Of a DNA stretch of 64,000 nucleotides, positions 26,660-42,893 are shown one piece after another. Under the pieces are notes generated by a model. That model was not told where the DNA came from and made no database searches. It saw only the letters and a program-made list of their open reading frames with translations. The first letter of the stretch is position 1, and each line of letters opens with the position of its first letter. This DNA comes from Methyloversatilis discipulorum. GTDB taxonomy: Bacteria; Pseudomonadota; Gammaproteobacteria; Burkholderiales; Rhodocyclaceae. The stretch lies in contig NZ_JADMJL010000021.1 in the NCBI RefSeq assembly GCF_018780585.1, positions 1 to 64,000 on the forward strand, given 5' to 3'. The translations under genes were made by a program, and so were the position numbers.

Positions 26660-27963
26660 TGACAGCGACGGCGCCAACGCGCCGGCAGATTCAGGTATGC
26701 ATCGGCAAGGCCGGTCTGCCCGTCGGCTCGCTCGTCTATGTGCGGCAAGGCCGGCGCGAGCACAGCACCTTTGCCTATGACCCATCCTGGCTGGACAGTT
26801 CGGCACGCTTCAATGTGTCGGCCGACCTGCAACTGCTGCCGGGCTACCAGCCGCACAAGGCGCGCTCGCTGAACGACTCGGTCTTTCATGGCGCCATCGC
26901 CGATACCGCGCCCGACGCCTGGGGTCGGCGCGTCATCGCCCGCGCTCACGCCAAGCGCCGCAAGGCCGATCCGCAGATGTCGGCCCTCACCGAACTGGAT
27001 TACCTGCTGGCGGTGGATGACTTCAGCCGCGTCGGCGCGCTGCGCCTGCGCGATGCGGATGGAGACTGGCACCGGACGACGCCCGAAGGACGCCGCAGCA
27101 CCCCGCCCTTGATCGAACTGCAGCGCATCTACCAGGCCAGCCGCGCCGTCGAGCGCGGACAGGAGACGGCCGAGGACTTGCGCTACCTGCAGGGCAAGGG
27201 CACCTCGCTCGGCGGCATGCGGCCCAAGTGCACCCTGGTGGACGAAGACGGCCGGCTCGCCATCGGGAAGTTTCCCAGTGTGGGCGATACGCGCAGCGTC
27301 ACCCGCGGCGAGGTGCTGGCGCTGAAGCTCGCAGCGCGCGCAGGCATCGCGGCCGCGCCTGCGCGCATCGTTCTGCTGGGCGACGAGGGAAACGAAGTGC
27401 CTGTGGCTCTGATCGGCCGCTTCGATCGTGATGACGCCGACGGCCGCATTCCCTACCAGTCGGCGGCATCGCTGCTGCAGGCCTCGCGCGAGGAGGATCG
27501 CAGCTACACGGAGATCGCCGACGCCCTTCGTACCCACGGCCACGCGCCCACGCAGGACGTGCAGCAGCTCTGGCGCCGCATGGCGTTCAATCTGCTGATC
27601 ACCAACGTGGACGACCACCTGCAGAACCACGGCTTCCTGCACGTGGCCCACGGCCAATGGCGCCTCGCGCCCGCCTTCGACATCAACCCGTTTCCGGACA
27701 AGGACCGGGAATCGAAGACCTGGCTGTCGGAGCAGGACGGGCCGATCACCGACGTGCAGATGCTGCTGGCCCGCTCGTCGTATTTCGCGTTGAACAGGGA
27801 ACAGGCCTTGTCGGTGCTGCAAGAGGTCTATGTGGCGGTCTGTCGGTGGAGGCAGGTCGCGCTGAGCCCCGAGGTCGGACTGCAGGAAGACGAGCTGGAC
27901 GATTTCGCGCCGGCTTTCGAGCACGGCCAGATGGAGGCGAGTGCCGAGCTGCTCGGCCTGTAG
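26659..27963 (+). CDS. hipA: HipA-like serine/threonine kinase toxin
   Basis: The 434-residue product is full-length for the HipA family. It shows an N-terminal subdomain with FHGAIADTAPDAWGRRVIAR, the phosphate-binding loop region GKGTSLGGMRPK, a nucleotide-binding IGKFPS lysine, the catalytic-loop motif NVDDHLQNHGFL and the metal-binding APAFDINP. HipA-type toxins phosphorylate aminoacyl-tRNA synthetases and arrest translation. All key motifs are present, so the toxin is probably active. It is followed by a strong bidirectional terminator shared with the pqqA gene on the other strand. Confidence 0.9.
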   Translation: MTATAPTRRQIQVCIGKAGLPVGSLVYVRQGRREHSTFAYDPSWLDSSARFNVSADLQLLPGYQPHKARSLNDSVFHGAIADTAPDAWGRRVIARAHAKRRKADPQMSALTELDYLLAVDDFSRVGALRLRDADGDWHRTTPEGRRSTPPLIELQRIYQASRAVERGQETAEDLRYLQGKGTSLGGMRPKCTLVDEDGRLAIGKFPSVGDTRSVTRGEVLALKLAARAGIAAAPARIVLLGDEGNEVPVALIGRFDRDDADGRIPYQSAASLLQASREEDRSYTEIADALRTHGHAPTQDVQQLWRRMAFNLLITNVDDHLQNHGFLHVAHGQWRLAPAFDINPFPDKDRESKTWLSEQDGPITDVQMLLARSSYFALNREQALSVLQEVYVAVCRWRQVALSPEVGLQEDELDDFAPAFEHGQMEASAELLGL

Positions 27964-28012
27964 GCCCTTGCTACGGGCGAAAAGTGACGAGGCGCGGCTC
28001 AACGGGCCGCGC

Positions 28013-28049
28013 AAAAAAAAAACGGCGGGCACAAGGCCCGCCGTTTTTT
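28013..28049. terminator. Bidirectional terminator between hipA and pqqA copy 1
   Basis: Stem CGGCGGGC (28023-28030) and GCCCGCCG (28036-28043) with a 5-nt loop has an A10 run on the left and a T6 run on the right, so it works for hipA on the plus strand and for pqqA on the minus strand. Confidence 0.9.
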
Positions 28050-28065
28050 CTTGCCACCGCAGAAC

Positions 28066-28140
28066 TTAGCGGTTGGCGACGTACATGGTGATTTCGAAGC
28101 CGAAACGCAGGTCGGTGGCCTTCGGGGTTTCCCAGCTCAT
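28066..28140 (-). CDS. pqqA: PQQ precursor peptide PqqA, copy 1
   Basis: This is a 24-residue peptide starting MSWETPKATDLRFGFE and ending ITMYVANR. PqqA is the ribosomally made precursor of pyrroloquinoline quinone: PqqE links the Glu and Tyr side chains in the E-x3-Y motif, here E16 and Y20, and both are then excised as PQQ. The ATG at 28140 follows AGGAG. The gene stands alone; no pqqBCDE is in the window. It differs from copy 2 (38490-38564) by only two bases. A strong terminator follows directly, so it yields a short monocistronic transcript. Annotation pipelines often miss such short genes. Confidence 0.93.
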   Translation of the reverse strand: MSWETPKATDLRFGFEITMYVANR

Positions 28141-28588
28141 GTCTATCTCCTCAGTTTTGATGGATGGCTCTTCCGCAGGCCCTGCATCCCGGTGATCGTG
28201 TTGCCTGACCTGCACTGCCAGTATCGTCAGCGGCGCACCCGGGCGCCTCGCAGCTGATCTGAACCGAGTCTAAAGAATTTCATTAAGGGCTGTTTCATCG
28301 ACAGAATTCCGGGGGCGACCTTCCCGGCACCTCACGGCGAAACGGCCCGGCGCAGCGCGTCGCACACTGTGCCGTCGCCATCGCCGCGGCATGCGCAGTC
28401 ACGGCCGATGCGAAAAAGTTTGATCTAATACGAAGCACACTAAGAAAGCGATGGCCACACTGCCGGTGGCCGAACAGACGCCCGGGGCGCAGGATATTCA
28501 GCTTCACGCAACCCGCGCCGCCGGGGGACGATCGTGCGCACGCCATGCGTGGTGCATGCATACGCCCCAACGATAACCAGAACGCGCC
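28141..28588. other. Intergenic region between pqqA copy 1 and the antiporter operon
   Basis: About 450 bp between divergent genes with no supported reading frame. It must hold the pqqA promoter, transcribed leftward from a locally AT-rich stretch near 28260-28290, and the promoter of the Kef-type antiporter operon. No recognisable operator was found. Confidence 0.5.
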
Positions 28589-30310
28589 ATGCCTCACGAC
28601 ATCACCCTTATCGCCACCATTGCGGCCGGTTTCGGCCTCGCCATGATCTTCGGCCTGATCGCGGTACGCCTGCGCATGCCGCCGCTGGTCGGCTACCTGA
28701 TGGCAGGCATCGTGATCAGCCCGACCACGCCGGGCTTCGTCGCCGACATCGGACTGGCCAGCCAGCTGGCGGAGATCGGCGTGATGCTGCTGATGTTCGG
28801 CGTCGGCCTGCATTTCTCGCTCGACGACCTGATGGCGGTCAAGCGCATCGCGGTGCCGGGCGCCGTGGTGCAGATCGCCGTCGCCACGCTGCTCGGCATG
28901 GCGGTCTCCACGATGTGGGGCTGGGACATCGGTGCGGCCATCGTGTTCGGCCTCTGCCTGTCGGTGGCCAGCACCGTGGTGCTGCTGCGCGCGCTCGAAG
29001 CCAAGGGACTGCTGAAGTCGATCAACGGCCAGATCGCGGTCGGCTGGCTGGTGGTCGAGGATCTGGTGATGGTGCTGGTGCTGGTACTGCTGCCGGCACT
29101 GGCCGGCGTGCTGTCGGGCAATGACGCCGCCGCATCGGGCCGCGACCTTGGCCTGGCAATGGCGATCACGCTGGCCAAGGTGATCGCCTTCATCGTGCTC
29201 ATGCTGGTGGTCGGCCGCCGCGTGCTGCCGCGCCTGCTGTGGTGGGTGGCGCGCACCGGGTCCCAGGAGCTGTTCACGCTGAGCGTGGTGGCCGTGGCGG
29301 TGGGTGTGGCCTTTGGCGCGGGCAAGCTGTTCGACGTGTCCTTCGCGCTGGGCGCCTTCTTCGCCGGCATGATGATGCGCGAGTCGGAGTTCAGCCACCG
29401 CGCCGCCGACGAGTCGCTGCCACTGCGCGACGCCTTCGCCGTGCTGTTCTTCGTGTCGGTCGGCATGCTGTTCGACCCGGCGGTGATCTGGACGCAGCCG
29501 CTGAAGCTGCTGCTGGTGGTGGCCATCATCATGGTGGGCAAGACCATCGCCGCGGTGCTGCTGGTGCTCGCCTTCCGCTACCCGCTGAACACCGCGCTGA
29601 CGGTGGGCGCCAGCCTGGCGCAGATCGGCGAGTTCTCGTTCATTCTCGCCGGGCTGGGCGTGAACCTCGGGCTGATGCCGGCCGAGGGGCAGAGTCTGGT
29701 GCTGGCCGGCGCACTGATTTCGATCGCCGCCAACGCGGCGCTGTTCTCGACCATCGAACCCTTCCGCGCCTGGGCCATCGCGCGCTCATCGCTGGCCCGC
29801 CGGCTGGAGCAGCGCGACGACCCGCTGGCGGCGCTGCCGATGACCACCGACGCGCGACTGCTGAACGAACAGGTGGTGCTGGTCGGCTACGGCCGTGTCG
29901 GCCGGCGTATCGCCGACGCGCTGCGCGAACAGCACATTCCCTGCGTGGTCGCCGAACAGAACCGCGAGCGCGTCGACCAGCTTCGGCGGGAGGGCGTACC
30001 GGCGGTGTTCGGCGATGCGCAGACGCCGGAGGTGCTGATCCAGGCGCACATCGCCCGCGCGGCAATGCTGGTGATCGCGATTCCGGAAACGGTGAACGTG
30101 CGCAAGATGGTCGAGATCGCACGCACGCTGAACCCGGAGATCGCCGTCGTGCTGCGCACCCACAACGAGGAAGAGGCCGAGCTGCTGGAGCGCGAGAGCC
30201 TGGGCACGGTGTTCCTTGGCGAGAACGAACTTGCGCGCGGCATGGCGGAGCACGTCGTGCGGCATTTCGGGCGCGGCGCGCCCGGCGGCGCCAGCTGGCC
30301 GCATCACTGA
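28589..30310 (+). CDS. ybaL: Kef/YbaL-type monovalent cation:proton antiporter
   Basis: The 573-residue product has an N-terminal CPA2 antiporter domain of about 12 membrane segments (LRMPPLVGYLMAGIVISP, LMFGVGLHFS and the VASTVVLLRAL segment), then a soluble TrkA-N domain with a Rossmann loop VLVGYGRVGRRIADAL at about residue 430. This arrangement matches YbaL/KefB. It exchanges K+ or Na+ for H+ under nucleotide or redox control. It leads a four-gene ion-transport operon, with 8 bp to the P-type ATPase. Confidence 0.92.
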   Translation: MPHDITLIATIAAGFGLAMIFGLIAVRLRMPPLVGYLMAGIVISPTTPGFVADIGLASQLAEIGVMLLMFGVGLHFSLDDLMAVKRIAVPGAVVQIAVATLLGMAVSTMWGWDIGAAIVFGLCLSVASTVVLLRALEAKGLLKSINGQIAVGWLVVEDLVMVLVLVLLPALAGVLSGNDAAASGRDLGLAMAITLAKVIAFIVLMLVVGRRVLPRLLWWVARTGSQELFTLSVVAVAVGVAFGAGKLFDVSFALGAFFAGMMMRESEFSHRAADESLPLRDAFAVLFFVSVGMLFDPAVIWTQPLKLLLVVAIIMVGKTIAAVLLVLAFRYPLNTALTVGASLAQIGEFSFILAGLGVNLGLMPAEGQSLVLAGALISIAANAALFSTIEPFRAWAIARSSLARRLEQRDDPLAALPMTTDARLLNEQVVLVGYGRVGRRIADALREQHIPCVVAEQNRERVDQLRREGVPAVFGDAQTPEVLIQAHIARAAMLVIAIPETVNVRKMVEIARTLNPEIAVVLRTHNEEEAELLERESLGTVFLGENELARGMAEHVVRHFGRGAPGGASWPHH

Positions 30311-30318
30311 CGTCCCTG

Positions 30319-33030
30319 ATGAACACTTCACACACCGACCCCACCGCCGGCGCCAAGGCCTGGCACGCATTGCCCGCAGACGACCTGCCGGCGCTGTTCG
30401 ATGTGCAGGCGCAGTCGGGCCTGAGCCGCGCCGAAGCGGCCGCGCGCCTGGTGAAGCATGGCCCGAACCGACTGCCCGAGGCGCCGAAGCGCCCACCCTG
30501 GCTGCGCTTCCTGCAGCAGTTCCACAACCCGCTGATCTATGTGCTGCTGGTGGCCGGCGCGGTGACGCTGGCGCTGGGCGGCCACGTCGATTCGGCCGTC
30601 ATCTTCGGCGTGGTGCTGATCAACGCGCTGATCGGCCACATCCAGGAAGGCAAGGCCGAGCGCGCGCTCGATGCGGTGCGCGGCATGCTCGCCGCGCGCG
30701 CCACCGTACTGCGCGACGGCGAGCGCCATCAGGTCGACGCCGCCGATCTGGTGCCGGGCGACATCGTGCTGCTTGAATCCGGCGACAAGGTGCCGGCCGA
30801 CCTGCGCCTGCTGCGCACGAAGAACCTGCGTGTGACCGAAGCCGCGCTGACCGGCGAGTCGGCACCGGTCGACAAGGACAGCGCCGCCGTGGCGGAAGCG
30901 GCAGCCATCGGCGACCGCCGCTCGATGTGCTACTGCGGCACGCTGGTTGCGCTCGGCCAGGCACGCGGCATTGTCGTGGCGACCGGCGTCGGCACCGAAA
31001 TCGGCCGCATCGGCACGCTGGTCGGCGAAGTGGCAACGCTGGCCACGCCGCTGACCCGCCGGCTCGACCAGTTCGCCCGCCAGATCACCGGCTTCATCCT
31101 GGTCGTCGCCACGCTGACCGTGCTCTACGGTCACTTCGTTATACAGATGCCGGCGTTCGACCTCTTTCTCGCCGTGGTCGGCCTCGCTGTCGCGGCCATC
31201 CCCGAGGGCATGCCGGCGGTGGTGACCATCGTGCTGGCCATCGGCACCCGCACGATGGCGCGCAAGAAGGCCATCGTGCGGCGGCTGCCGGCGGTCGAGA
31301 CGCTGGGCTCGGTCACTGTCATCTGCACCGACAAGACCGGCACGCTGACCCGCAACGAAATGACGGTGGTGCGACTGCTGCTCGCCGACCGCGAGATCGG
31401 CGTCAGCGGCAGCGGCTACGCGCCGGAAGGCGGCTTTCACGACGATGGTCAGCCGCTCGCCCCCGGCGACGTGCCCGGACTGGCTGCCGCAGCCCGCTGC
31501 GCGCTGCTGTGCAACGACGCGCAGATCCGCCACGACGGCGACGCCGGCTGGACGCTGATCGGCGACCCCACCGAGGGCGCGCTGGTCGCCTTCGCCCGCA
31601 AGGCGGGCCTGGATCCGCAGGACGAGGCTCAGCACTTCCCGCGCGTCGATGCCATTCCGTTCGAGTCGGAACGCCAGTTCATGTGCACGCTGCACCGCGA
31701 CCATACGGGCCATGCCTTCCTGCTGCTCAAGGGCGCGCCGGAGCGGGTGCTGGCGCTGTGCGCCACCCAGTACGACGGCGCGCCACTGGACCACGGCTAC
31801 TGGACGGCGGCGATCGCGCGCGCCGGCGGTGCGGGCGAGCGCGTGCTGGCGCTGGCGCAGGCGCCCTTCCCCAGCGATCGCTCCTCGGTCGAACTGCAGG
31901 ACATCGACGCCCGCTTCGAACTGATCGGTCTGGTCGGCATCATCGACCCGCCGCGCGAAGAAGCGATCGCCGCCGTGGCGCAGTGCCGCGAAGCGGGCAT
32001 ACGGGTCAAGATGATCACCGGCGACCACGCAGTCACCGCTGCGGCGATCGGCCGCCAGCTGGGCCTGGAGGCCGATCGCACGCTGACCGGCGACGTCATC
32101 GGCACGCTGGACGCCGCCGCGCTGCGTGAGCGCGCGCTGGACACCGACGTGATCGCGCGCGCCAGCCCGGAACACAAGCTGCGGCTGATCGAGGCCTTGC
32201 AGGCCGAAGGCCACCTCGTGGCGATGACCGGCGACGGCGTGAACGATGCGCCGGCGCTGAAGTCGGCCGACATCGGCGTCGCCATGGGCGGCAAGGGCAC
32301 GGACGCGGCGCGCGAAGCCTCGGACCTGGTGCTCACCGACGACAACTTCGCCACCATCGCGCGCGCGGTGCGCGAAGGCCGCGTCGTGTTCGACAACATC
32401 AAGAAATCGCTGATGCACATGCTGCCGACCAATGGCGGCGAGGCCGGCGTCATCCTGCTGGCCATCTTCGCCGGCCTGCCACTGCCGGTGACCGCAGGCC
32501 AGATCCTGTGGGTGAATACGGTCACTTCGGTCACGCTGGCGCTGTCGCTCGCCTTCGAGCCGGCCGAGCAGAACGTGATGTCGCACGCGCCGCGCCCGCC
32601 ACAGGAGCCCATCGTCACCCGCGCGCTGGGCCTGCGCATCCTGTTCGTCATTGCGCTGATGGTGGCGACCACCTTCACCGTGTTCAACTGGGAGCTGGCG
32701 CGCGGCAGCAGCATCGAACTGGCGCGCACCGCCGCGGTGAACATGATCGTCGTGTGCGAACTGTTCTACCTGTTCAACGTGCGCCACTTCACCCGCCACG
32801 CCTTCAGCGTGGAAACACTGACCGGCAACCGCGTGGTGCTGCTGGTCAGCGCCATCCTGATCGTGCTGCAACTGCTGTTCACCTATGCCGCACCGATGCA
32901 GCAGCTGTTCAGGAGCGCCGCGCTCGACCTGTCTTCATGGACGGTGATTCTCGGCCTCGGCGCCGCCGTGTTTCTGGCGGTCGAAATCGAGAAGGCGGTC
33001 CTTCGCCACTTCCGCGTGGCCCGGCTGTAA
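30319..33030 (+). CDS. P-type cation-transporting ATPase (class II, Ca2+/Na+-like)
   Basis: The 903-residue product begins at ATG 30319, after the antiporter stop. It contains the actuator motif LTGESAPVDKD, PEGMPAVVTIVLAIGTRTMA in membrane segment M4 with the ion-site PEG(M/L), the phosphorylation site DKTGTLT at about residue 338, KGAPERVL in the nucleotide domain and MTGDGVNDAPALKSADIGVA in the hinge. The N-terminal cation ATPase domain and ten membrane segments place it with SERCA/PMR1-like bacterial pumps, which export Ca2+, Mn2+ or Na+. Substrate is inferred; the co-transcribed Ca2+ exchanger favours Ca2+. Confidence 0.92.
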   Translation: MNTSHTDPTAGAKAWHALPADDLPALFDVQAQSGLSRAEAAARLVKHGPNRLPEAPKRPPWLRFLQQFHNPLIYVLLVAGAVTLALGGHVDSAVIFGVVLINALIGHIQEGKAERALDAVRGMLAARATVLRDGERHQVDAADLVPGDIVLLESGDKVPADLRLLRTKNLRVTEAALTGESAPVDKDSAAVAEAAAIGDRRSMCYCGTLVALGQARGIVVATGVGTEIGRIGTLVGEVATLATPLTRRLDQFARQITGFILVVATLTVLYGHFVIQMPAFDLFLAVVGLAVAAIPEGMPAVVTIVLAIGTRTMARKKAIVRRLPAVETLGSVTVICTDKTGTLTRNEMTVVRLLLADREIGVSGSGYAPEGGFHDDGQPLAPGDVPGLAAAARCALLCNDAQIRHDGDAGWTLIGDPTEGALVAFARKAGLDPQDEAQHFPRVDAIPFESERQFMCTLHRDHTGHAFLLLKGAPERVLALCATQYDGAPLDHGYWTAAIARAGGAGERVLALAQAPFPSDRSSVELQDIDARFELIGLVGIIDPPREEAIAAVAQCREAGIRVKMITGDHAVTAAAIGRQLGLEADRTLTGDVIGTLDAAALRERALDTDVIARASPEHKLRLIEALQAEGHLVAMTGDGVNDAPALKSADIGVAMGGKGTDAAREASDLVLTDDNFATIARAVREGRVVFDNIKKSLMHMLPTNGGEAGVILLAIFAGLPLPVTAGQILWVNTVTSVTLALSLAFEPAEQNVMSHAPRPPQEPIVTRALGLRILFVIALMVATTFTVFNWELARGSSIELARTAAVNMIVVCELFYLFNVRHFTRHAFSVETLTGNRVVLLVSAILIVLQLLFTYAAPMQQLFRSAALDLSSWTVILGLGAAVFLAVEIEKAVLRHFRVARL

Positions 33031-33060
33031 GCCGGCACGCATTTTTCGGGGAGACCCAGC

Positions 33061-33996
33061 ATGCCTCAGCTTCAACGCATCATCGCCGCGACCGATCTGT
33101 CGCCCTTGTCGCTCGACGCCGTCGACCGCGGCTTCGAACTGGCCAGCCGCAGCGGCGCGCACTACACGCTGGTGCATGCGCTGGGCCTCGACGCACTCGG
33201 TCCGCTGCGCAACCTGCTCGGCGATCAGGCTGAAATCGTTTCCGAGAAGGCCGTACAGCACCAGTACGACGCGCTCGCCGCGATCGCCGGCGATGCCACG
33301 CACAATCGCGGCGTGGTGGCGGAACTGAAGGTCGAAGCCGGGCTGGCGACGCAGTTCCTACCAGCCTATGCGGCATCGGTTCAGGCCGATCTGGTTCTGG
33401 TCGGCGCGCGAGGCGAAAGCGTGCTGAGCCGGCTGCTGGTCGGTTCGACCGCGTCGCGCCTGCTGCGCAAGAGCAGCAGTCCGGTGCTGGTGGTGAAGAA
33501 GCCGTGCCTTGGGCCTTACCGGCGCGTGCTGGTACCGGTCGACTTCTCGCCGGGTTCGCTGGAGGCCATCCGCATGGCACGCCGCGTCGCGCCCGAGGCC
33601 GATCTGCTGCTGCTGCACAGTTTCGACGTGCCGTTCGAAGGCATGCTGCAGTACGCCGGAATTTCGCAGGACCTGATCAACGGCTACCGGGCGGAAGCAC
33701 GCGAGCGCTCGCTGCGCCTGCTGCACGAGCTGGCCGAGCGCGCCGGGCTGGAGCGCAGCCTGTACACGGTGATGGTCGAGCACGGCAACGCGTCGCGCCA
33801 CATCCTGGACTGCCAGGCGCAGCGCAACTGCGACCTGATCGCGATGGGCAAGCACGGCACGCACGTGACCGAAGAACTGCTGCTGGGCAGCGTGACCAAG
33901 CACGTGCTGTCGGAGGCCGATTGCGACGTGCTGGTGGTGATCGACCGCCGCGGGCCGACCGAGATTCCGGCGATGCCGGGCGAGGACTTCGTCTGA
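33061..33996 (+). CDS. Tandem universal stress protein (two UspA domains)
   Basis: The 311-residue product has two UspA domains. Each ends with the ATP-binding pattern G-x2-G-x9-GS: VGARGESVLSRLLVGSTASR in the first and MGKHGTHVTEELLLGSVTK in the second. A GGGGAGA ribosome site precedes the ATG. Tandem Usp proteins often accompany ion transporters and may sense ATP. The 3' end overlaps the start region of the exchanger gene, so the two are coupled. Confidence 0.93.
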   Translation: MPQLQRIIAATDLSPLSLDAVDRGFELASRSGAHYTLVHALGLDALGPLRNLLGDQAEIVSEKAVQHQYDALAAIAGDATHNRGVVAELKVEAGLATQFLPAYAASVQADLVLVGARGESVLSRLLVGSTASRLLRKSSSPVLVVKKPCLGPYRRVLVPVDFSPGSLEAIRMARRVAPEADLLLLHSFDVPFEGMLQYAGISQDLINGYRAEARERSLRLLHELAERAGLERSLYTVMVEHGNASRHILDCQAQRNCDLIAMGKHGTHVTEELLLGSVTKHVLSEADCDVLVVIDRRGPTEIPAMPGEDFV

Positions 33997-34991
33997 CCGC
34001 CGGGCTGACGCTGCACCCGGCCCTCGTTTTCGTGGCCGGGCTGGTGATCGTGCTGGCCGGTGCCGAAATGGTGCTGCGCGGCGCCTCGCGCGTGGCGGCG
34101 CGGCTGCGCGTCCCGCCGATACTGATCGGGCTCACCGTGGTGTCGGTCGGCACCAGCGTGCCCGAACTGGCAGTCGGCATCACCGCGGTCGCCGAAGACA
34201 AGGGGCCGCTGGCGGTCGGCAATATCGCCGGCACCAACATCCTGAACATCCTGTTCATCCTCGGCCTGAGCGCGCTGATGCGACCGCTGCCGACGCGCAT
34301 GCTCAGCGTGCGGCTCGACGTGCCGGTCATGATCGCCGCCGCGCTGGCGCTGATCGCGATGGCGTGGGACGGGCGGCTAGACCGCAGCGAGGGCGTGCTG
34401 TTGCTGATCGGCGCCGTGCTGTACACGGTGGCGCTGGTGCGCCTCAGCCGCGAGGAAAGCGCGGCGATGCAACGCGAATTCGCGCGCGAGGTGGCCGACG
34501 TGATGCCCGCCACGCTGCGTTCGGCGCGGCTGTTCATGGCGTGGAATTCGGCACTGCTGCTGGCCGGCATGGCGCTCACGCTGTTCGGAGCCGACCTGCT
34601 GGTGAATGGCGCATCGAGCATCGCGCGCGCCTATGGCGTGTCGGACGCCTTCATCGGGCTCACCATCGTCGCCATCGGCACCTCGGCGCCGGAGCTGGCC
34701 ACCACCGTGCTGTCGACGCTGAAGAACGACCGCGACGTGGCGATCGGCAACCTGATCGGCAGCAGCATCTACAACATTCTGGTCATCCTCGGCCTGACCA
34801 TGACCATCGCGCCGCATGGCATCGAGGTCGGCAGCGACGTGCTGCGCATCGACCTGCCGCTGGCCGCACTGGTGGCCATCGTGTGCCTGCCGGTGTTCCG
34901 CAGCGAGCGCCGGGTGTCGCGCACTGAAGGCGGACTTTTCGTCAGCGCCTATCTGATCTATCTGTCACTGCTGCTGTTCGTCCGTCACTGA
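33993..34991 (+). CDS. Calcium/sodium antiporter (CaCA family, YrbG-like)
   Basis: The product of about 332 residues has two inverted repeats, each with the ion-binding alpha-repeat signature: GLTVVSVGTSVPELAVG...GNIAGTNILN, and GLTIVAIGTSAPELATT...GNLIGSSIYN. It has about ten membrane segments. The start is unclear: no ATG fits, and candidates are CTG at 33993, which overlaps the preceding stop, or GTG at 34033. It ends the ion-homeostasis operon and is followed by a terminator. Confidence 0.9.
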   Translation: MTAGLTLHPALVFVAGLVIVLAGAEMVLRGASRVAARLRVPPILIGLTVVSVGTSVPELAVGITAVAEDKGPLAVGNIAGTNILNILFILGLSALMRPLPTRMLSVRLDVPVMIAAALALIAMAWDGRLDRSEGVLLLIGAVLYTVALVRLSREESAAMQREFAREVADVMPATLRSARLFMAWNSALLLAGMALTLFGADLLVNGASSIARAYGVSDAFIGLTIVAIGTSAPELATTVLSTLKNDRDVAIGNLIGSSIYNILVILGLTMTIAPHGIEVGSDVLRIDLPLAALVAIVCLPVFRSERRVSRTEGGLFVSAYLIYLSLLLFVRH

Positions 34992-34997
34992 AGGACA

Positions 34998-35026
34998 AAA
35001 CCCGGCCCGCTGCGCGGGACCGGGTT
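34998..35026. terminator. Terminator between convergent genes
   Basis: AAACCCGG...CCCGC, loop TGC, GCGGG...CCGGGTTT forms a long stem with one bulged A. It serves the exchanger on the plus strand and the hydrolase on the minus strand; T-runs are short on both sides. Confidence 0.7.
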
Positions 35027-35036
35027 TCGTGCGGCC

Positions 35037-35987
35037 TTACTTGCGCAGGAAGTCCAGCAGATCCTGATTGAGCCTGTCCTTGTGCGTGTCGGTGATGCCG
35101 TGCGGCGCACCCGGATAGACGATCAGTTCGGCGTTGCGGACCAGCGCGGCCGAGGCCTTGCCCGACAGGTCGAGCGGCACGATCTGGTCGTCGTCGCCGT
35201 GGATCACCAGCGTCGGCACGTCGAACTTCTTCAGGTCGGCGCGGAAGTCGGTGGCCGAGAACGCCGCGATCGAGTCGTAGGTGTTCTTGTGCCCCGCCTG
35301 CATGCCCTGCGCCCAGAACGACTGGATCAGCCCCTGCGACGGCTTGGCACCGGGACGGTTGTAGCCGTAGAACGGACCCGAGGCGATGTCGAGATACAGC
35401 TGCGAACGGTTGTCGATCGACGCCTTGCGGATGCCGTCGAACACCTCGATCGGCAGGCCACCCGGATTGTCGGCGGTCTGCAGCATCAGCGGCGGCACCG
35501 CACTGACCAGCACCGCCTTCTTCACCCGGCTGGTGCCGTGACGGCCGATGTAGCGCGCCACCTCCCCGCCACCGGTGGAGAAGCCGACCAGCGTGGCGCC
35601 CTTCAGGTCCAGCGCCTGGATCACCGCGGCGAGATCGTCGGCGTAGTGGTCCATGTCGTTGCCGTCCCACGGCTGCGACGAGCGACCGTGACCGCGCCGG
35701 TCATGCGCCACCACACGGTAGCCCTGCGACGCGAGGAAGAGCATCTGCGCTTCCCAGCTGTCGGAACTGAGCGGCCAGCCGTGGCTGAACACGACGACCT
35801 GACCGTTCTTCGGGCCCCAGTCCTTGTAGTAGATCTGCACGCCGTCACGCGTGGTGACGTAGTTTTCGGTCTTCTTGACCGCGACCGATGTGCGCGCGGC
35901 GGGCTTGGCGGCTTCGGCGGCGAAGGTCGGTGCGGCAAGCGCGGCGGCGAGCACGGACAGGGCGAGGGTGCGGCGGACTGCATTCAT
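35037..35987 (-). CDS. Secreted alpha/beta hydrolase, cofactor-free haloperoxidase type
   Basis: The 316-residue product has a signal peptide ([20 protein letters not shown]). The fold motifs are [12 protein letters not shown] with the oxyanion region, [10 protein letters not shown], nucleophile elbow VGFSTGGGE with Ser137, [15 protein letters not shown] for the acid, and GAPHGI for the histidine. These match non-haem chloroperoxidases/esterases, which normally lack a signal peptide, so periplasmic location is unusual. It lies 57 bp downstream of ohr on the same strand and may share its peroxide-related regulation. Confidence 0.88.
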
Positions 35988-36044
35988 GATGGATTCCTTT
36001 CAAGTAACGGGTTGGGGACGGTGGCTATCCGTCAGGCCGATGAC

Positions 36045-36473
36045 TCAGTCGGCGATGACCAGGGTGACGTCGATGTTTCCGCGGGTGGCGTTCGAGTACG
36101 GGCACACGATGTGCGCCTTCTCGACCAGCGACTCGACCTGTTCGCGCGGCAGGCCCGGCACGGCGATGGTCAGTTCGACCTCGATGCCGAAGCCGGTCGG
36201 GATGGCGCCGATGCCGACGCGGCCGGTGATCTGCGTGTCGGCGGGCAGCGCGACCTTGTTCTGGCCGGCGACGAACTTCAGCGCGCCGAGAAAGCAGGCC
36301 GAGTAGCCGGCGGCGAACAGCTGTTCGGGATTGGTGCCGGGGCCGCCGGCGCCGCCCAGTTCCTTCGGCGTCGACAGCTGGACATCGAGCACGCCGTCGG
36401 ACGACGCGGCGCGGCCTTCGCGGCCACCGGTTGCAGTGGCCTGGGCGGTGTAGAGAACCTTTTCGATCGACAT
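36045..36473 (-). CDS. ohr: Organic hydroperoxide resistance protein (Ohr)
   Basis: The 142-residue OsmC-fold thiol peroxidase has catalytic Cys60 in [10 protein letters not shown] and resolving Cys124 in [13 protein letters not shown], plus the conserved [13 protein letters not shown] region. It reduces lipid and organic peroxides to alcohols. It is divergent from an AraC-type regulator at 36597, and the hydrolase gene lies just downstream. I see no OhrR (MarR-type) regulator nearby, so the AraC protein may take its place. Confidence 0.95.
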
Positions 36474-36596
36474 GATGAACTCCTGTGCAGTGAGAGAGGT
36501 TTGCGGCAGTGCCTGTTGGCAGGACGAACTTTGCGCCGATCCGCGAGACCATACGCAACGTATAATCCTGAAAACTTACCTCTGAGTATTTTGCTC

Positions 36597-37418
36597 ATGG
36601 TCGACCGCCTCGAAGCCCTGCTGGAGCATTTCTCGGTCAGCGCCCGCGTGTTCAACACCGGCGCGCTGTGCGGCATCACCGAACTGGATGCGGGCGACAG
36701 TGGCCGCATGCACCTGGTGCGCGCCGGTGAGGTGGACATCCACCATCCCGCCGGCATCGAGCACGTGACCCGGCCCAGCCTGCTGCTGTTTTCGCGACCG
36801 ACGCCCTACCGCTTCGTCACCGACCCGGAGCGTGGCGCCGACTTCGCCTGCGCGCGGCTGCACTTCTCCGGCGGTGCGGCCAATCCGATCGCGTCGGCGC
36901 TGCCCGACTTCAGCTGTCTGGCGCTGGACGACATCCTCGGCGCGAAGCCGGTGCTCGACCTGCTGTTCGACGAGGCGTCGCACGAGTACTGCGGCCGGCA
37001 GGCGGTGCTGGATCGATTGTTCGAGGTGGTGCTGGTGCAGGTGCTGCGGCACCTGATGGAAGGCGGCCAGACCGGCGCCGGCATGCTGGCCGGGCTGTCG
37101 CACCCGCGGCTGCGTCTGGCGCTGGTGGCCATGCACGAGAAACCGGCGCAGGAATGGACGCTGGATACGCTGGCCGAGCGCGCCGGCATGTCGCGCAGCG
37201 TGTTCGCCAACGTGTTCCGCGACACCGTGGGCTGCACGCCCGGCGCCTATCTGCAGCGCTGGCGCATCGGCATCGCCCAGCGTGCGCTGCGCCAGGGCCG
37301 CGCGCTGAAACTGATCGCCGACGAGGTGGGCTACGGCGGCGAGGCGGCGCTGTCGCGTGCCTTCAAGGCGCAGACGGGACTGTCGCCACGGCAGTGGCGC
37401 AACGCACAGGGCGTCTGA
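36597..37418 (+). CDS. AraC-family transcriptional regulator
   Basis: The 273-residue product has a cupin-like AraC_6 effector domain (residues about 1-165, with THRPSLLLFSRPTPYRF-type core) and a C-terminal double helix-turn-helix: TLDTLAERAGMSRSVFANVF and LKLIADEVGYGGEAALSRAF, ending FKAQTGLSPRQWR. ATG at 36597 lies 124 bp from the divergent ohr start; TATAAT occurs at 36560-36565. It probably controls ohr and the hydrolase, by position. No strong ribosome site is visible. Confidence 0.9.
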   Translation: MVDRLEALLEHFSVSARVFNTGALCGITELDAGDSGRMHLVRAGEVDIHHPAGIEHVTRPSLLLFSRPTPYRFVTDPERGADFACARLHFSGGAANPIASALPDFSCLALDDILGAKPVLDLLFDEASHEYCGRQAVLDRLFEVVLVQVLRHLMEGGQTGAGMLAGLSHPRLRLALVAMHEKPAQEWTLDTLAERAGMSRSVFANVFRDTVGCTPGAYLQRWRIGIAQRALRQGRALKLIADEVGYGGEAALSRAFKAQTGLSPRQWRNAQGV

Positions 37419-37461
37419 CGGCTAAGGCGAGCGACCGGTCAGCTGCGTGGCCTAAAGTTGC

Positions 37462-37488
37462 AGCAGAGGAAACTTTGTTTCCTCTGCT
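37462..37488. promoter_or_regulatory. Perfect 12-bp hairpin upstream of the exporter gene
   Basis: AGCAGAGGAAAC (37462-37473), loop TTT and GTTTCCTCTGCT (37477-37488) form an uninterrupted hairpin between the AraC gene and the exporter start at 37522. There is no downstream T-run, so it may be an operator or an mRNA leader structure rather than a terminator. Confidence 0.5.
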
Positions 37489-37521
37489 AGCATTCAGCCG
37501 CATCGTCCCCTCTTCGCCTCC

Positions 37522-38418
37522 ATGTCCGTCCGTCCCGTCTCTACCGCGGCCACGCTCTGCGGTCTTGCCGCCATCCTGCTCTGGAGCACGATGATTGGCA
37601 TGGTGCGCAGCATCAGCACCGCGCTCGGACCGGTGGTCGGTGCGGCAGCGATCTACACGGCAGGCGCGATCTTCCTCTGGCTGCTGTTCCGCCCGGCTTC
37701 GCCGCGTGGCGCGCGCCCGGTCTATCTGCTGCTCGGCGGGGCCCTGTTCCTCGCCTATGAACTGTGTCTGTCGCTGTCGCTCGGCCTGGCGCTCGACGAC
37801 GCACAGGCGATGGAGCTGGGCATCGTCAATTACTTGTGGCCCTGCTTCACCATCCTGCTCGCGGGCGCGATGAACGGGCAGCGCCTGCGCCCGTGGATCG
37901 CGCCGGGACTGGTGCTGTGTCTGAGCGGAATCATCCGGGTGGTGGGCGGGGGGAACGAGTGGTCGCTGTCCTCGCTGTCGGCTGGCGTGGCGTCGAATCC
38001 GGTGGTGTATGCGCTGGCCTTCGCTGGCGCGCTGCTGTGGGCGCTCTACTGCAATGTGACCCGTCGTCTGGCGGACGGCTACAACGGCGTCACCGTGTTC
38101 TTCTCGGCAACGGCGGCTGCACTGTGGGGGCTGGTGGTGCTGGGCGGAGAGCCGCTGCCTGTACCGTCGGCGCAGATCGGATTGGAAGTGGTCGCCGCCG
38201 GAGCGGCCCTGGGTGTGGGCTACGCGCTGTGGAATGTCGGCATGCTCGGCGGCGACATGCCACTGCTCACCACCGCGTCCTACGGCGGGCCGCTGCTGTC
38301 GACTGCATTCGCCGCCGCGTGGCTGGGGGCGCCGCTCGCGCCGCCGTTCTGGCAGGGTGCGGCGCTGGTGACGGCCGGATCGCTGCTGTGCTGGCGGGCG
38401 ACGCGCCCTGCCGGATGA
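37522..38418 (+). CDS. yddG: DMT-family exporter, YddG-like
   Basis: The 298-residue, ten-segment EamA/DMT transporter carries IVNYLWPCFTILLAG, ALLWALYCNVTRRLADG and GVGYALWNVGMLGGDM, all features of the aromatic amino acid exporter YddG. It exports phenylalanine, tyrosine or similar compounds across the inner membrane. It is flanked upstream by a perfect hairpin and downstream by a 16-bp-stem bidirectional terminator. Confidence 0.87.
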   Translation: MSVRPVSTAATLCGLAAILLWSTMIGMVRSISTALGPVVGAAAIYTAGAIFLWLLFRPASPRGARPVYLLLGGALFLAYELCLSLSLGLALDDAQAMELGIVNYLWPCFTILLAGAMNGQRLRPWIAPGLVLCLSGIIRVVGGGNEWSLSSLSAGVASNPVVYALAFAGALLWALYCNVTRRLADGYNGVTVFFSATAAALWGLVVLGGEPLPVPSAQIGLEVVAAGAALGVGYALWNVGMLGGDMPLLTTASYGGPLLSTAFAAAWLGAPLAPPFWQGAALVTAGSLLCWRATRPAG

Positions 38419-38438
38419 GTGCGTTTTCGGGCGCCACA

Positions 38439-38473
38439 AAACAGAAAAGCGGGCAATGCCCGCTTTTCTGTTT
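38439..38473. terminator. Bidirectional terminator between yddG and pqqA copy 2
   Basis: A perfect 16-bp stem, AAACAGAAAAGCGGGC (38439-38454) and GCCCGCTTTTCTGTTT (38458-38473), with an AAT loop has A- and T-rich outer parts, so it works in both directions. It ends pqqA copy 2 sixteen bases after the stop. Confidence 0.88.
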
Positions 38474-38489
38474 GCTCAAACGCTGAGGA

Positions 38490-38564
38490 TCAGCGGTTGG
38501 CGACGTACATGGTGATTTCGAAGCCGAAACGCAGGTCGGTGGCCTTCGGGGTTTCCCAGTTCAT
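38490..38564 (-). CDS. pqqA: PQQ precursor peptide PqqA, copy 2
   Basis: This 24-residue peptide begins MNWETPKATDLRFGFE and keeps the E-x3-Y crosslink residues (E16, Y20) and the IT-MYVANR end. It differs from copy 1 at two of 75 bases: residue 2 is Asn instead of Ser, and the stop is TGA instead of TAA. The ribosome site AGGAG lies seven bases before the ATG. As with copy 1, no PQQ maturation gene is adjacent and a terminator follows at once. The upstream neighbour is an orphan methyltransferase gene with a 107-bp gap. Confidence 0.93.
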   Translation of the reverse strand: MNWETPKATDLRFGFEITMYVANR

Positions 38565-38671
38565 GGCAGTCTCCTGATGGTGGTTCGTTGGCTCACTGCG
38601 ACGTGCAGTGCATGGATCGAATACTGCGCCGGTCCGGCACCGCCCACCTCGTGCCACTCTGGAAAGACGAC

Positions 38672-39826
38672 TCAGGATTTTCTTGAGCGCAGCGTTTCGA
38701 ACACGTCGGGCAGCATGCAGGTCTGCAGGCTGCGCTGCGAGAACAGGAAGCGGCCGTCGCAGACGAAACCCAGTTCCTGCCAGTCCACGGCGTCGTTGAG
38801 CAGCTCAGCGGCACGTGCCAGATCGGCCACTTCGGGGCGGGCGAACAGCGCCAGCACCGAGCCGTCGTAGTGCGTGCACTCGTGCAGGAAGAAGGGGCGC
38901 GGCTTGCGCGTCTTGCCATTCACGTAGATGCGCGGGCCGCCCGAGCGGTGGTGCAGACGTCCCCACTGCCACCAGTTGTGCTCGCCGAACTCGCGTACGC
39001 GCCGCGCCAGCAGCCGCGGCTTGTGCTGCTCCAGCCAGTCGTTGCGCACATCGAAGAAGGCGCGCCGCGTGCGGCCGGTGTCGACCGTGCTGGAACAGAC
39101 GAACTCCACATTGCCCTGCGGGTGCACGAAGATGTCGTCCGCCCCGGACACGGCGCCGACGCGCACGTCGAACAGCGACGCGAGCGGTACGCCGTAATCG
39201 CCACGCAGGAACATGAGCTGGCCGCGTTCGCAGTGGAAGCGCCGGCCGTCGCTCATGCGCCGGTCCATGCGCCCCTTCTCGAAACGGAATACCGCGCAGT
39301 TCGGCACATAGGGGCCGAACACGCGGCTGTCGCCGGTCTCGATGAAGTCGGTGATGCTGCCCTGGGCGAACAGCCAGTCATTCAGCCGGCGCGCGGCGGT
39401 CAGCTTGATGAAGTCGCGCGGCACGATGAAAATCAGCTCGCCACCCGGTTTCAGATGACGCACGCACTTCTCGATGAAGAAGAGATAGAGGTTGCTGCGG
39501 CGGTCGAACAGATCGCTGCGCAGCTGTGCCCGCGTGTCCGCCTGGATATCCTGGTGCCGCACGTAGGGCGGATTGCCGATCACGGTGTCGAACTTCTCGT
39601 CGACCGGGTAGGCGAAGAAATCCATCACCTGCGCGCCGGCCGGCGCGACCGTCGGATCGATCTCGATGGCCACGCAGCCCGGAATGCGCGACGCGAAGGC
39701 GCCGTCGCCAGCCGACGGTTCAAGCGTGCGGCCATGGTTGCGGCGCAGCGCCAGCATGCGTTCGACGACATCGTCGCGGGTGAAGACCTGTCCCAGGATC
39801 TCGACCCGGTGGTTCCTTTCGTTCAT
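38672..39826 (-). CDS. Orphan N6-adenine DNA methyltransferase
   Basis: The 384-residue product starts at ATG 39826 (an upstream in-frame ATG at 39883 is in poor context). It has the SAM-binding motif LEPSAGDGAF (residues 35-44), acidic motif AIEIDP and catalytic NPPY at 85-88 followed by VRHQD, then FIEKCVRHLKPGGELIFIVP. The order (SAM site before NPPY) and the C-terminal part fit the TaqI/Eco57I-like gamma class, though the target-recognition part is short. There is no cognate nuclease beside it. Confidence 0.88.
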   Translation of the reverse strand: MNERNHRVEILGQVFTRDDVVERMLALRRNHGRTLEPSAGDGAFASRIPGCVAIEIDPTVAPAGAQVMDFFAYPVDEKFDTVIGNPPYVRHQDIQADTRAQLRSDLFDRRSNLYLFFIEKCVRHLKPGGELIFIVPRDFIKLTAARRLNDWLFAQGSITDFIETGDSRVFGPYVPNCAVFRFEKGRMDRRMSDGRRFHCERGQLMFLRGDYGVPLASLFDVRVGAVSGADDIFVHPQGNVEFVCSSTVDTGRTRRAFFDVRNDWLEQHKPRLLARRVREFGEHNWWQWGRLHHRSGGPRIYVNGKTRKPRPFFLHECTHYDGSVLALFARPEVADLARAAELLNDAVDWQELGFVCDGRFLFSQRSLQTCMLPDVFETLRSRKS

Positions 39827-39925
39827 GGCGCCATTGTCCCATGGCTCCCATGTGCCGGCGCAGCATGTGTGCCGCCCACGCATGGGCTACCATCAGCGCC
39901 CCGCACCCACACCCTGCCCCACCCC

Positions 39926-40897
39926 ATGCTGCATGCACCGATGGAACCGTTCGATCACGGCTGGCTCGACGTCGGTCAGGGCCATCGCGTCTATTACGAA
40001 CAGTGCGGCAACCCGCAGGGCAAGCCGGCGCTTTACCTGCACGGCGGCCCGGGCTCGGGTTGCTCGCCACGCCAGCGCCGCTTCTTCGATCCGGCGGTGT
40101 GGCGCGCCGTGCTGTTCGATCAGCGCGGCTGCGGCCGCAGCACGCCGCTGGGCGATACCGCGCACAACCACAGCGATGCGCTGATCGCCGACATCGAGGC
40201 GCTGCGCCGCCATCTGGGCATCGAGCACTGGCTGGTATTCGGCGGCTCCTGGGGAGCGACGCTGGCGGCGACCTATGCCGCGCGCCACCGTGAGGCCTGC
40301 AGTGGCGTGCTGCTGCGCGGCCTCTTCCTCGGCGGGCGCGCGGACATCGACGCGTTCTTCCACGGTGCCGCCGCGCTGGCACCCGAAGCGCACGACGCCT
40401 TCATGCAGGTCGTCCCGGCGCGTTGGCGCAGCCGTGTCGTCGTCTGGCTCGACCGCGTGTTCTCGTCCGGCGACAGCGCGCGCATCGACCGCGCCGTACT
40501 GGCCTGGCGCGCCTGGGAACACGCGCTCGGCGCGTGGCCGGAACGCACCGTGCCGGCCGAGCCAAGCGCGGACGAGTGGCCGCTGCTGCGTGCCCGCTAT
40601 CGCGTGCAGTCGCACTATCTGGCGCACCGCTGCTTCATCGGCGAAGCGAAGGTGATGGACGCGATCGCCCGCCTGCACGGGCTGCCGGTCGCCCTCGTGC
40701 ACGGCACCAACGACCTGATCTGCCGGCCGCAGAACGCCTGGCGCGCCCACCGCACGCTGGCGGGCAGCCGGCTGGCCTGGGCACAGGGCGCCGGTCACGA
40801 CCCCTTCCATCCGGCCAGCCTCAAGCTGCTCGGATCGGCGCTGACCGCGCACGCGCGGGACGGACATTTCGACGCCTGGCCGGGAGAACCGTCGTGA
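39926..40897 (+). CDS. pip: Prolyl aminopeptidase
   Basis: The 323-residue alpha/beta hydrolase of peptidase family S33 has oxyanion motif LHGGPGSG, DQRGCGRSTP, nucleophile GGSWGATL (Ser108), VHGTNDLICRP for the acid and GAGHDP for the histidine. It removes N-terminal proline from peptides in the cytoplasm. ATGs at 39926 and 39941 are both possible starts. Its TGA overlaps the GTG of the histidine kinase gene. Confidence 0.93.
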   Translation: MLHAPMEPFDHGWLDVGQGHRVYYEQCGNPQGKPALYLHGGPGSGCSPRQRRFFDPAVWRAVLFDQRGCGRSTPLGDTAHNHSDALIADIEALRRHLGIEHWLVFGGSWGATLAATYAARHREACSGVLLRGLFLGGRADIDAFFHGAAALAPEAHDAFMQVVPARWRSRVVVWLDRVFSSGDSARIDRAVLAWRAWEHALGAWPERTVPAEPSADEWPLLRARYRVQSHYLAHRCFIGEAKVMDAIARLHGLPVALVHGTNDLICRPQNAWRAHRTLAGSRLAWAQGAGHDPFHPASLKLLGSALTAHARDGHFDAWPGEPS

Positions 40898-42240
40898 GTC
40901 TCAGACTGAAGCTGAACCTGCTGATCGCCGCGGTCATCCTGACCTTCACCAGCACCATGCTGACGATGGAACTGATGGGCACGCGACGCGCCGTCGGCGA
41001 AGAAATCGAGGCGGCGAACCGGGTGGCCACCCAGCTGCTGTCGCGCGTGGCGCTGGTCTACGCCAATATGGGTTCGCCGGCGCTGGTCGATTTCCTGTAC
41101 CGGCTCGGTCGCGTGCGCGCCACCGAAATCCATCTGGTCGACAGCAGCGGCGTGAAGCTCTACACCTCGCCGCCCTCGCCCTACAAGGCGGGCCGCGACG
41201 CGCCCGAGTGGTATTCGAACGCGATACTGCCCAAGCGGCCACGCCAGGAGATCACACTGAACGACGGCGCGCGACTGGTGGTGGAAGCCGACGCTTCGCG
41301 CGCCATCCTCGACGGCTGGGACGAGGCGGTGCAGCTGCTGATCGCCGGCTCGATCGCGCTGCTGCTGGGCAACGGCATCGTGTTCTGGCTGGTCGGCCGC
41401 GAAACCCGTCCGTTCAACACCATCGTGCGCGGGCTCGAACACATGCGTGCCGGCGACTATCACACGCGGCTGCCGCCGCTGCCCGGCAAGGAAGCCCGAT
41501 CGATGGCCCTGGCCTTCAACCGGATGGCACAGGCCATCGAGGACAACATGAACGCCCGGCAGGAAGCGCTCGAAGCGCGCAGCAATCTGGAAGAGAACCG
41601 CGAACTGACGCAGTTCATCCAGAGTCGCATCGAGGAGGAGCGGCGCGACATCGCGCGCGAGCTGCACGACGAAATGGGCCAGGCGGTCACCGCGATCAAG
41701 AGCATGGGCCTGTCGATTGCGCGGCGCGACGCACAGTCCGATCCGCGCAGTGCGGAGGCGGCCAACCTGATCGTCGAGACGGCCAATCACCTGTACGACG
41801 TGATGCACAGCATCATCCCGAAGCTGCGACCGCTGGCGCTGGACAATCTCGGGCTGGAAGATGCGCTGGAAGATCTGGTGTCGGAGTGGCGGCGTCACCA
41901 TCCGGACATGCAGTTCGAACTGCAGATGCACGACCTGCCGGAGGCGCCGGGTGACTCCTTCAAGCTGGCGGCCTACCGCATCGTGCAGGAGGCGGTGACC
42001 AATGCACTCAAGCACGCGCACGCCCGGAAAATCATGATTTCGCTGCACGGGTCGGAACGGTCGCTGGAGCTGTCGGTCGAGGACGATGGCACTGGTCTGG
42101 AACAGGGCTGGGCACAGAAGCGCGGACACCACGGCGTACGCGGCATGCGCGAGCGCGCGCAGGCACTCGGCGGCGAACTTGAACTGCAGCCGCGCGACGG
42201 TGGGGGTACCCGGGTGTTCGCGCGACTGCCGATGGATTGA
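40894..42240 (+). CDS. Sensor histidine kinase, NarX/UhpB type
   Basis: The 448-residue product starts with GTG at 40894, which overlaps the preceding stop. It has a membrane segment at residues 5-25, a periplasmic part of about 120 residues, a second segment (LLIAGSIALLLGNGIVFWLV), a HAMP linker, and a HisKA_3 dimerisation domain with RRDIARELHDEMGQ, whose His (about residue 256) is the phosphorylation site. A GHKL ATPase domain follows (RIVQEAVTNALKHAHA, EDDGTG, HHGVRGMRERA). It pairs with the response regulator 14 bp downstream. The signal is unknown. Confidence 0.93.
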   Translation: MSLRLKLNLLIAAVILTFTSTMLTMELMGTRRAVGEEIEAANRVATQLLSRVALVYANMGSPALVDFLYRLGRVRATEIHLVDSSGVKLYTSPPSPYKAGRDAPEWYSNAILPKRPRQEITLNDGARLVVEADASRAILDGWDEAVQLLIAGSIALLLGNGIVFWLVGRETRPFNTIVRGLEHMRAGDYHTRLPPLPGKEARSMALAFNRMAQAIEDNMNARQEALEARSNLEENRELTQFIQSRIEEERRDIARELHDEMGQAVTAIKSMGLSIARRDAQSDPRSAEAANLIVETANHLYDVMHSIIPKLRPLALDNLGLEDALEDLVSEWRRHHPDMQFELQMHDLPEAPGDSFKLAAYRIVQEAVTNALKHAHARKIMISLHGSERSLELSVEDDGTGLEQGWAQKRGHHGVRGMRERAQALGGELELQPRDGGGTRVFARLPMD

Positions 42241-42254
42241 GGGGGAGAACAACA

Positions 42255-42893
42255 ATGGGACCGATCAAGGTCATGCTGGTGGACGACCACGCGGTCGTCC
42301 GCATGGGATTCAAGCTGCTGCTCGCCGCCTGCGAGGACATCGAGGTGATCGGCGAGGCCGACAGCGGCGAAGTGGCCTACCAGCGCTACACCGAACTGAA
42401 GCCGGACGTGATCGTGATGGACCTGTCGATGCCCGGCATGGGCGGCATCGAGGCCGTACGGCGACTGACCGCGCGCGACAAGGGCGTGCGCATCCTGGCG
42501 CTGTCGGCGCACGAGGACACGGCACATCCGAAACGGGTGCTGAAGGCGGGCGCCACCGGTTACCTGTCGAAGCGCGGCGCGCCGGAGGCACTGATCGACG
42601 CGGTGCGCACGGTGGCCGCCGGCCGCATGTATCTGGACGCCGAAATCGCGCAGAAGCTGGCGATGCAGGACGTGACCGGCACGCAGAATCCGGTCGAAGC
42701 GCTGTCGGAGCGTGAGTTCGAAGTGTTCATCCACCTCGCCCGCGGGCAGTCGGTGAACCAGATCGCCGAAACCCTGCATCTGTCGACCTCCACCGTCGGT
42801 ACCCATCTTTACAACGTCAAGCAGAAACTCGGCGCATCCAACCAGGCTGAACTGACGCTGATTGCACTTCGCAACGGCCTGATCGAGGCCTGA
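42255..42893 (+). CDS. Response regulator, NarL/FixJ family
   Basis: The 212-residue product has a receiver domain with D10/D11, phospho-acceptor D56 in VIVMDLSMPG and K in GYLSKRG, and a LuxR-type DNA-binding domain (LSEREFEVFIHLARGQS, NQIAETLHLSTSTVGTHLYN). A GGGGGAG ribosome site precedes the ATG. It is the partner of the kinase at 40894. Targets are unknown; the downstream protease gene is separated by 404 bp. Confidence 0.95.
   Translation: MGPIKVMLVDDHAVVRMGFKLLLAACEDIEVIGEADSGEVAYQRYTELKPDVIVMDLSMPGMGGIEAVRRLTARDKGVRILALSAHEDTAHPKRVLKAGATGYLSKRGAPEALIDAVRTVAAGRMYLDAEIAQKLAMQDVTGTQNPVEALSEREFEVFIHLARGQSVNQIAETLHLSTSTVGTHLYNVKQKLGASNQAELTLIALRNGLIEA

Follow-up and report, generated by a model that had tools for sequence, protein, structure and literature searches.

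A small gene in a 64,000-nucleotide stretch of Methyloversatilis DNA (hereafter the window) is probably a functional orphan pqqA cassette that supplies extra PqqA, is induced together with the other pqqA copies, occupies the site of an old operon and is kept by selection. The genome of the window (G000; G001 and following are the other genomes compared) has a set of four pqqA copies. The locus of the gene is old within the genus, synonymous change in pqqA is reduced, and an upstream palindrome is shared by operonic and orphan copies. In many bacteria, methanol and other alcohol dehydrogenases depend on PQQ as their cofactor, and Methyloversatilis is a methylotrophic genus; the role in methanol growth guessed at in a first-pass annotation of this DNA fits the genus.

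The gene, referred to as copy 2, had been placed at 38490-38564, and these coordinates proved exact; it lies on the minus strand. It matched PF08042 (E 3.9e-10; 39.9 bits against a curated cut-off of 21.1) and TIGR02107 (40.7 bits against a cut-off of 20). The resemblance first reported between copy 2 and the other pqqA of the window, copy 1, was reproduced in full: the two genes have the same orientation, are 10,424 bp apart from ATG to ATG, and agree at 73 of 75 bases, the differences falling in codon 2 (AGC/AAC) and in the stop codon (TAA/TGA). For two independent encodings of the peptide, with the codon usage of the window genes or of a ribosomal-protein region, about 10 of 23 codons would be expected to differ, and no synonymous difference was seen (P ~1e-6). 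Chance identity was thus rejected, so that either shared ancestry with constraint or conversion is needed to account for copies 1 and 2. The flanks of the two copies had been described as unlike. This holds for a pairwise look only, in which the direct alignment stops at -11 and +72, since cross-species comparison reveals the same kind of palindromic element upstream of both. Two genes stand beside copy 1, at 26336-27963: one is small and HTH-like, the other HipA-like (HipA_C by Pfam); the distance of the latter from pqqA varies between other species.

Table 1. Features of the window around pqqA copies 1 and 2
Feature	Position	Strand	Basis or remark
pqqA copy 1 (locus N), peptide MSWETPKATDLRFGFEITMYVANR	28066..28140	-	sequence reading
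Bidirectional terminator-like hairpin of copy 1	28013..28055	.	folding
Palindromic element of copy 1 TAATGAAATTCTTTAG	28270..28285	-	sequence comparison
pqqA copy 2 (locus M), PQQ precursor peptide MNWETPKATDLRFGFEITMYVANR	38490..38564	-	Pfam and TIGR profile matches
Bidirectional intrinsic-terminator-like hairpin of copy 2	38437..38475	.	folding
Shine-Dalgarno AGGAG of copy 2	38571..38575	-	sequence; conserved across species
-10-like hexamer TATTCG (putative function)	38618..38623	-	alignment; stretch mostly conserved across species
Palindromic element of copy 2 (putative operator) TCAAGAAAATCCTGAG	38671..38686	-	cross-species comparison; 107-122 bases before ATG
Eco57I-like N6-adenine methylase gene	38672..39883	-	PF07669, E 4.1e-21
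Alpha/beta hydrolase (labelled pip; Abhydrolase_1)	39980..40897	+	domain match; divergent from copy 2
Sensor histidine kinase (HAMP, HisKA_3, HATPase_c)	40891..42240	+	domain matches; start codon not fixed
LuxR/NarL-type response regulator, candidate reader of the palindrome	42237..42893	+	PF00072, PF00196

Copy 2 had been called a second orphan. An orphan it is, belonging to a set of several pqqA with one pqqB and not lying beside that pqqB, but G000 has three orphans together with one copy adjoining pqqB. Copies 1 and 2 are in the window, a third copy is on contig C77 and a fourth on contig C9; the one pqqB of the genome starts some 220 bases past the first base of the C9 pqqA, the only copy that adjoins it. 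Across 13 genomes of the genus there were 46 pqqA matches, 2 to 5 in each, comprising 43 intact copies, one decayed copy and two of a divergent type. The set of 43 copies used below excludes the decayed copy and the divergent pqqA-like gene that G008 and G009 each have once. This divergent gene, MQWIDPAYNDIRLGFEVTAYVYVR (G008:C15, L064, and G009:C19, L068), lacks the palindrome and is followed by a pqqE-like stretch. A peptide similar to MQWIDPAYNDIRLGFEVTAYVYVR is encoded near pqqB in G146 (L207), there with the palindrome; this copy, missed by the script motif and read by eye, stands outside both copy counts.

Genus pqqA copies were sorted into loci by their flanking genes. Locus OP, before pqqB, is present in 13 of 13 genomes. 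Locus M, that of copy 2 and behind the Eco57I-like methylase gene, is present in 12 of 13 with the decayed copy of G005 included, and locus K, behind the kdsD/lptC genes, in 11 of 13. Locus N, that of copy 1, was assigned by flanks in G000, G001 and G010 and by promoter type and position only in G002 and G004. Locus X occurs in G002 and G004, and G005 has one further pqqA copy outside the named loci. The methylase gene, codirectional with copy 2 and directly upstream of it, marks locus M in the genus and has a match in 35 of the 37 genomes of the family searched. Both flanks of locus M align in nine of the 11 other genomes that have it; in G002 the methylase is present with no pqqA directly behind. 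The decayed copy of G005 (L055, G005:C56) has the crosslinked Glu changed to Asp, has lost its stop codon and retains only part of the palindrome, the pattern expected once selection lapses. As judged from this distribution, locus M is as old as the main split of the genus.

The age of the locus decides against one of the origins first proposed, namely a recent duplication in which one of copies 1 and 2 gave rise to the other. The near-identity and the 10.4-kb spacing would suit such an event, and at locus X, in G002 and G004, the copies do resemble duplications of M, promoter and terminator included. For copy 2, however, a recent duplication fails because its locus, common to 12 of the 13 genomes, dates to the main split of the genus; moreover, copies 1 and 2 have unlike upstream regions, each conserved with its own orthologues. 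We therefore regard this origin as highly improbable. As refuting its reading, the first-pass annotation had named ancient independent copies in relatives with equal synonymous divergence; such ancient copies were found, and equal divergence was seen only for some pairs of loci.

Another of the causes proposed, a very strong constraint on the nucleotide sequence, was borne out by the rate of synonymous change. Loci OP, M and K were compared in five genome pairs with non-overlapping species-tree paths, giving 12 locus comparisons. Over the 178 sites covered we counted 10 synonymous differences, where the rate of the neighbouring genes would predict 34.7 (ratio 0.29), which supports nucleotide constraint. 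The slowing is uneven. Between G000 and G004, locus M has 0/15 synonymous differences (neighbours 0.30-0.36), and loci OP (4/15) and K (3/15) are near the 0.26-0.32 of their neighbours. Past the ATG, 12 of 23 codons are invariant among the 43 copies or deviate in a single copy. Codon 12 is CGT in 42 of 43, and the share of CGT among Arg codons is 9% in the window genes and 35% in the ribosomal region. The fixed codons fit selection for translation and do not prove it.

The remaining proposed cause was gene conversion. We compared trees by Fitch parsimony on 30 sequences, from three loci in each of the 10 genomes other than G005 (decayed M copy), G002 and G007 (M or K missing). Independent loci required 40 steps, sisterhood of the three loci within each genome 71, and homogenisation at two clade stems 35. 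Conversion within each genome was rejected by these counts (71 against 40); conversion once at the stem of each of the two clades is weakly supported. Recombination between copies, rather than selection on each, could thus be what keeps them alike, and several observations agree with such concerted evolution. When independent loci with one common root sequence were simulated, 0 of 4000 runs reached the saving of 5 of 40 steps. Clade B has Gln4 and Ile21 in 15 of 15 intact copies, and in clade I all copies have Val21 and all but one Glu4. Copy 1 combines an operon-type promoter with the coding haplotype of copy 2. Set against these are the within-genome step count, the locus-specific silent marks that last across species (GTT at locus K of clade I; CCC in the operonic copy of clade B) and the choice of the tested trees after the data were seen. 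At third positions alone the homogenised tree is only 2 steps shorter (P 0.004-0.008), and 3 of the 5 steps saved are amino-acid sites, which selection could move together. From the parsimony gain and the simulations, it is likely that the copies were to some extent homogenised long ago or that residues 4 and 21 were selected jointly. As the general reason for the likeness of the copies, concerted evolution appears unlikely.

Each copy in the window had been credited with its own strong bidirectional terminator, and the hairpins indeed fold on both strands (-32.2/-26.4 kcal/mol for copy 2 and -29.4/-20.8 kcal/mol for copy 1), with fold z values of -6.3/-8.1 and -4.6/-3.3, respectively; neither hairpin was listed by a simple terminator scan. 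A promoter scan upstream of copy 2 returned no sigma-70 consensus promoter. Across the loci of the genus, paralogues align from about -120/-147 to +122/+137, that is, from operator to terminator, as in G004, where X and M are 89% identical over 249 bp. Paralogue alignments within G000 are shorter, at 73 to 138 bp. The element shared by the copies suggests that copy 2 is one of a set of operator-promoter-pqqA-terminator cassettes. At the yigZ locus we looked for the boundaries of an insertion of the X cassette; the flank on the left was too variable, and no target duplication was seen.

A palindromic element like TCATGAAAATCATGA is found about 100-240 bp upstream of pqqA in every locus class of the genus. 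In copy 2 this putative operator and the methylase stop codon share bases. With TMATGAWWWTCATKA as the reference for scoring, 42 of 44 genus pqqA copies reached at least 13/15, the two below being the decayed G005 copy and the X copy of G002. Shuffled upstream regions reached 13/15 in 0 of 2200 cases, the shuffles keeping single-base composition and covering the GC-rich genus upstreams only. Among copies fetched from other genera, 50 of 54 (47/48 plus 3/6) scored at least 13/15; those below were one copy in G039, two of G037 (12/15) and one of G071. The palindromes of G000 are imperfect with respect to the search pattern, with one mismatch for copy 2 and the C77 copy and two for copy 1 and the C9 copy. 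A search of the whole G000 genome gave 25 matches (control, 3), six of which represent the four pqqA sites; the other places number 17, with 13 inside a called reading frame.

The association extends beyond the genus. Among 250 genomes drawn from the order, 52 have pqqA, 39 of them with two or more matches. The exact palindrome is present in 40 of the 52 pqqA-bearing genomes (absent from 12) and in 46 of the 198 others, as counted by eye from tables. Among the 75 palindromes listed, 47 are in pqqA-bearing genomes, and 39 of these 47 precede a pqqA by 104-231 bp. Counted by gene, 41 of 51 pqqA matches have the exact palindrome upstream and 10 have none, a count confined to genomes with listed palindromes.

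Eight of the listed palindromes in pqqA-bearing genomes do not precede pqqA, and six of these eight precede homologous DUF1800 genes (G058, G149, G188, G064, G110, and G100). DUF1800 genes behind the pqqA-type palindrome were observed in several families (loci L169-L173 and L175, with weaker sites in L154 and L166), and weaker sites precede DUF1800 genes in G000 and G012. This DUF1800 gene was found in 14 of the 30 genomes searched; those of the 30 that lack it include 5 of the 13 genus genomes and six other pqqA-bearing genomes. The best site upstream of it ranged from 14/15 (G183 and G251) down to a score no better than shuffled sequence (G054). DUF1800 is less certain than pqqA as a target of the palindrome.

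Beyond the methylase gene, and divergent from copy 2, are the hydrolase, sensor kinase and response regulator genes of Table 1. Relatives of the kinase and regulator were found at 24 of the 32 pqqA loci examined outside the genus (24/26 plus 0/6), a count biased to paired pqqA because 18 of the 32 loci were fetched for two pqqA a few kilobases apart. Three G060 copies, one of them before pqqB, have a perfect palindrome and neither a kinase nor a regulator of this kind in the 12 kb examined. A layout recurring in many families (L189-L206) consists of pqqB-pqqA, then hydrolase-kinase-regulator, then another pqqA that follows the regulator directly. In G035, which shares its family with G000, pqqE-pqqB-pqqA lies on the hydrolase side, the position that copy 2 occupies in G000; from this arrangement we infer that locus M is an old operon site. 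Copy 2 is separated from the two-component genes by the methylase gene, and this weakens a reading of the region as a single unit. The kinase/regulator pair is likely a regulator of the pqqA copies, and its binding to the palindrome is suggested by gene neighbourhood alone. The response regulator scored below curated cut-offs, with 61 bits against 390 for ErdR and 199 against 280 for UvrY/SirA/GacA, and no AgmR/ErbR model was among the 25 of 103 families listed for it. We tentatively suggest that a palindrome of the form CTCATGAnnnTCATGAG may be the operator of a PQQ regulon present in many families of the order, possibly read by the pqq-flanking kinase and regulator and driving operonic and orphan pqqA and the DUF1800 gene.

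The orphan copies might instead be relics, or their role might lie outside PQQ supply, with regulatory RNAs and lanthanide-related peptides as examples. One copy has indeed decayed, in G005, and the available part of one report on Methylorubrum extorquens mentions PqqA as a suggested part of an alternative lanthanide uptake system (PMC11317620). The peptides argue otherwise: the 43 intact genus copies, orphan and operonic, encode just nine different ones, and E16 and Y20, which have the spacing of the crosslinked Glu and Tyr of PqqA, are present in copy 2 and in all 43. This Glu and Tyr are the pair that PqqE crosslinks, according to the part of PMC12997753 available. The ribosome-binding site and terminator are also kept, and a search of 27700-39200 gave no Rfam family at its gathering score. 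We consider a relic or another role very unlikely.

The reading that we prefer, of copy 2 as a source of additional PqqA, would work as follows. The cassette, consisting of operator, promoter, 24-codon gene and terminator, would make extra PqqA, the peptide consumed as substrate of PQQ synthesis, and the enzymes would come from the single pqqB-containing locus elsewhere. The palindrome would be the binding site of the response regulator, so that the copies would be induced together. Locus M would be where the pqq operon once stood next to its two-component system; a pqqA would have remained there, with the enzyme genes now at another place. The nucleotide sequence would be kept the same by selection for strong expression of a peptide used as substrate, and not by recent copying.

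With a candidate operator and a candidate regulator, the question of why methylotrophs retain spare precursor genes can be put to a direct test, and PQQ yield gains a handle. For DUF1800, a family of unknown function, the link proposes a role, and if the regulon exists as suggested, these proteins would have a new PQQ-linked function. For the reading of genomes, the lesson is that near-identical short paralogues can be old and constrained, not freshly copied.

A partial literature search, on operator and regulator, on pqqA conversion and on a link of DUF1800 to PQQ, which an earlier account may have escaped, found no description of the palindrome, the cassette anatomy or that link. LuxR-type regulation of pqq and ped genes is described for AgmR/ErbR in Pseudomonas (PMC12997753, as far as available, which gives no AgmR binding site). 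The candidate regulator resembles AgmR/ErbR in being of the LuxR type, which in Pseudomonas controls PQQ synthesis genes, but its nearest models are UvrY/GacA, whose cut-off it does not reach, and its ErdR score is low. That methylotrophs have spare pqqA genes is established. In the parts of the reports available, Methylophilaceae have 3-12 pqqA, the PQQ producer FJNU-6 five, and Methylovorus MP688, in which PqqA supply is cited as rate-determining, also five; Methylorubrum extorquens has orphan pqqA2/pqqA3 (PMC4109929, PMC9851590, PMC11317620). These systems are like G000 in having several pqqA, mostly away from one pqqBCDE set. Multi-copy orphan pqqA is thus already known, and what appears to be new is a putatively co-regulated, syntenic set; unlike the methylotroph accounts available, the present one has loci that are syntenic across a genus, a measured synonymous rate and a common upstream palindrome.
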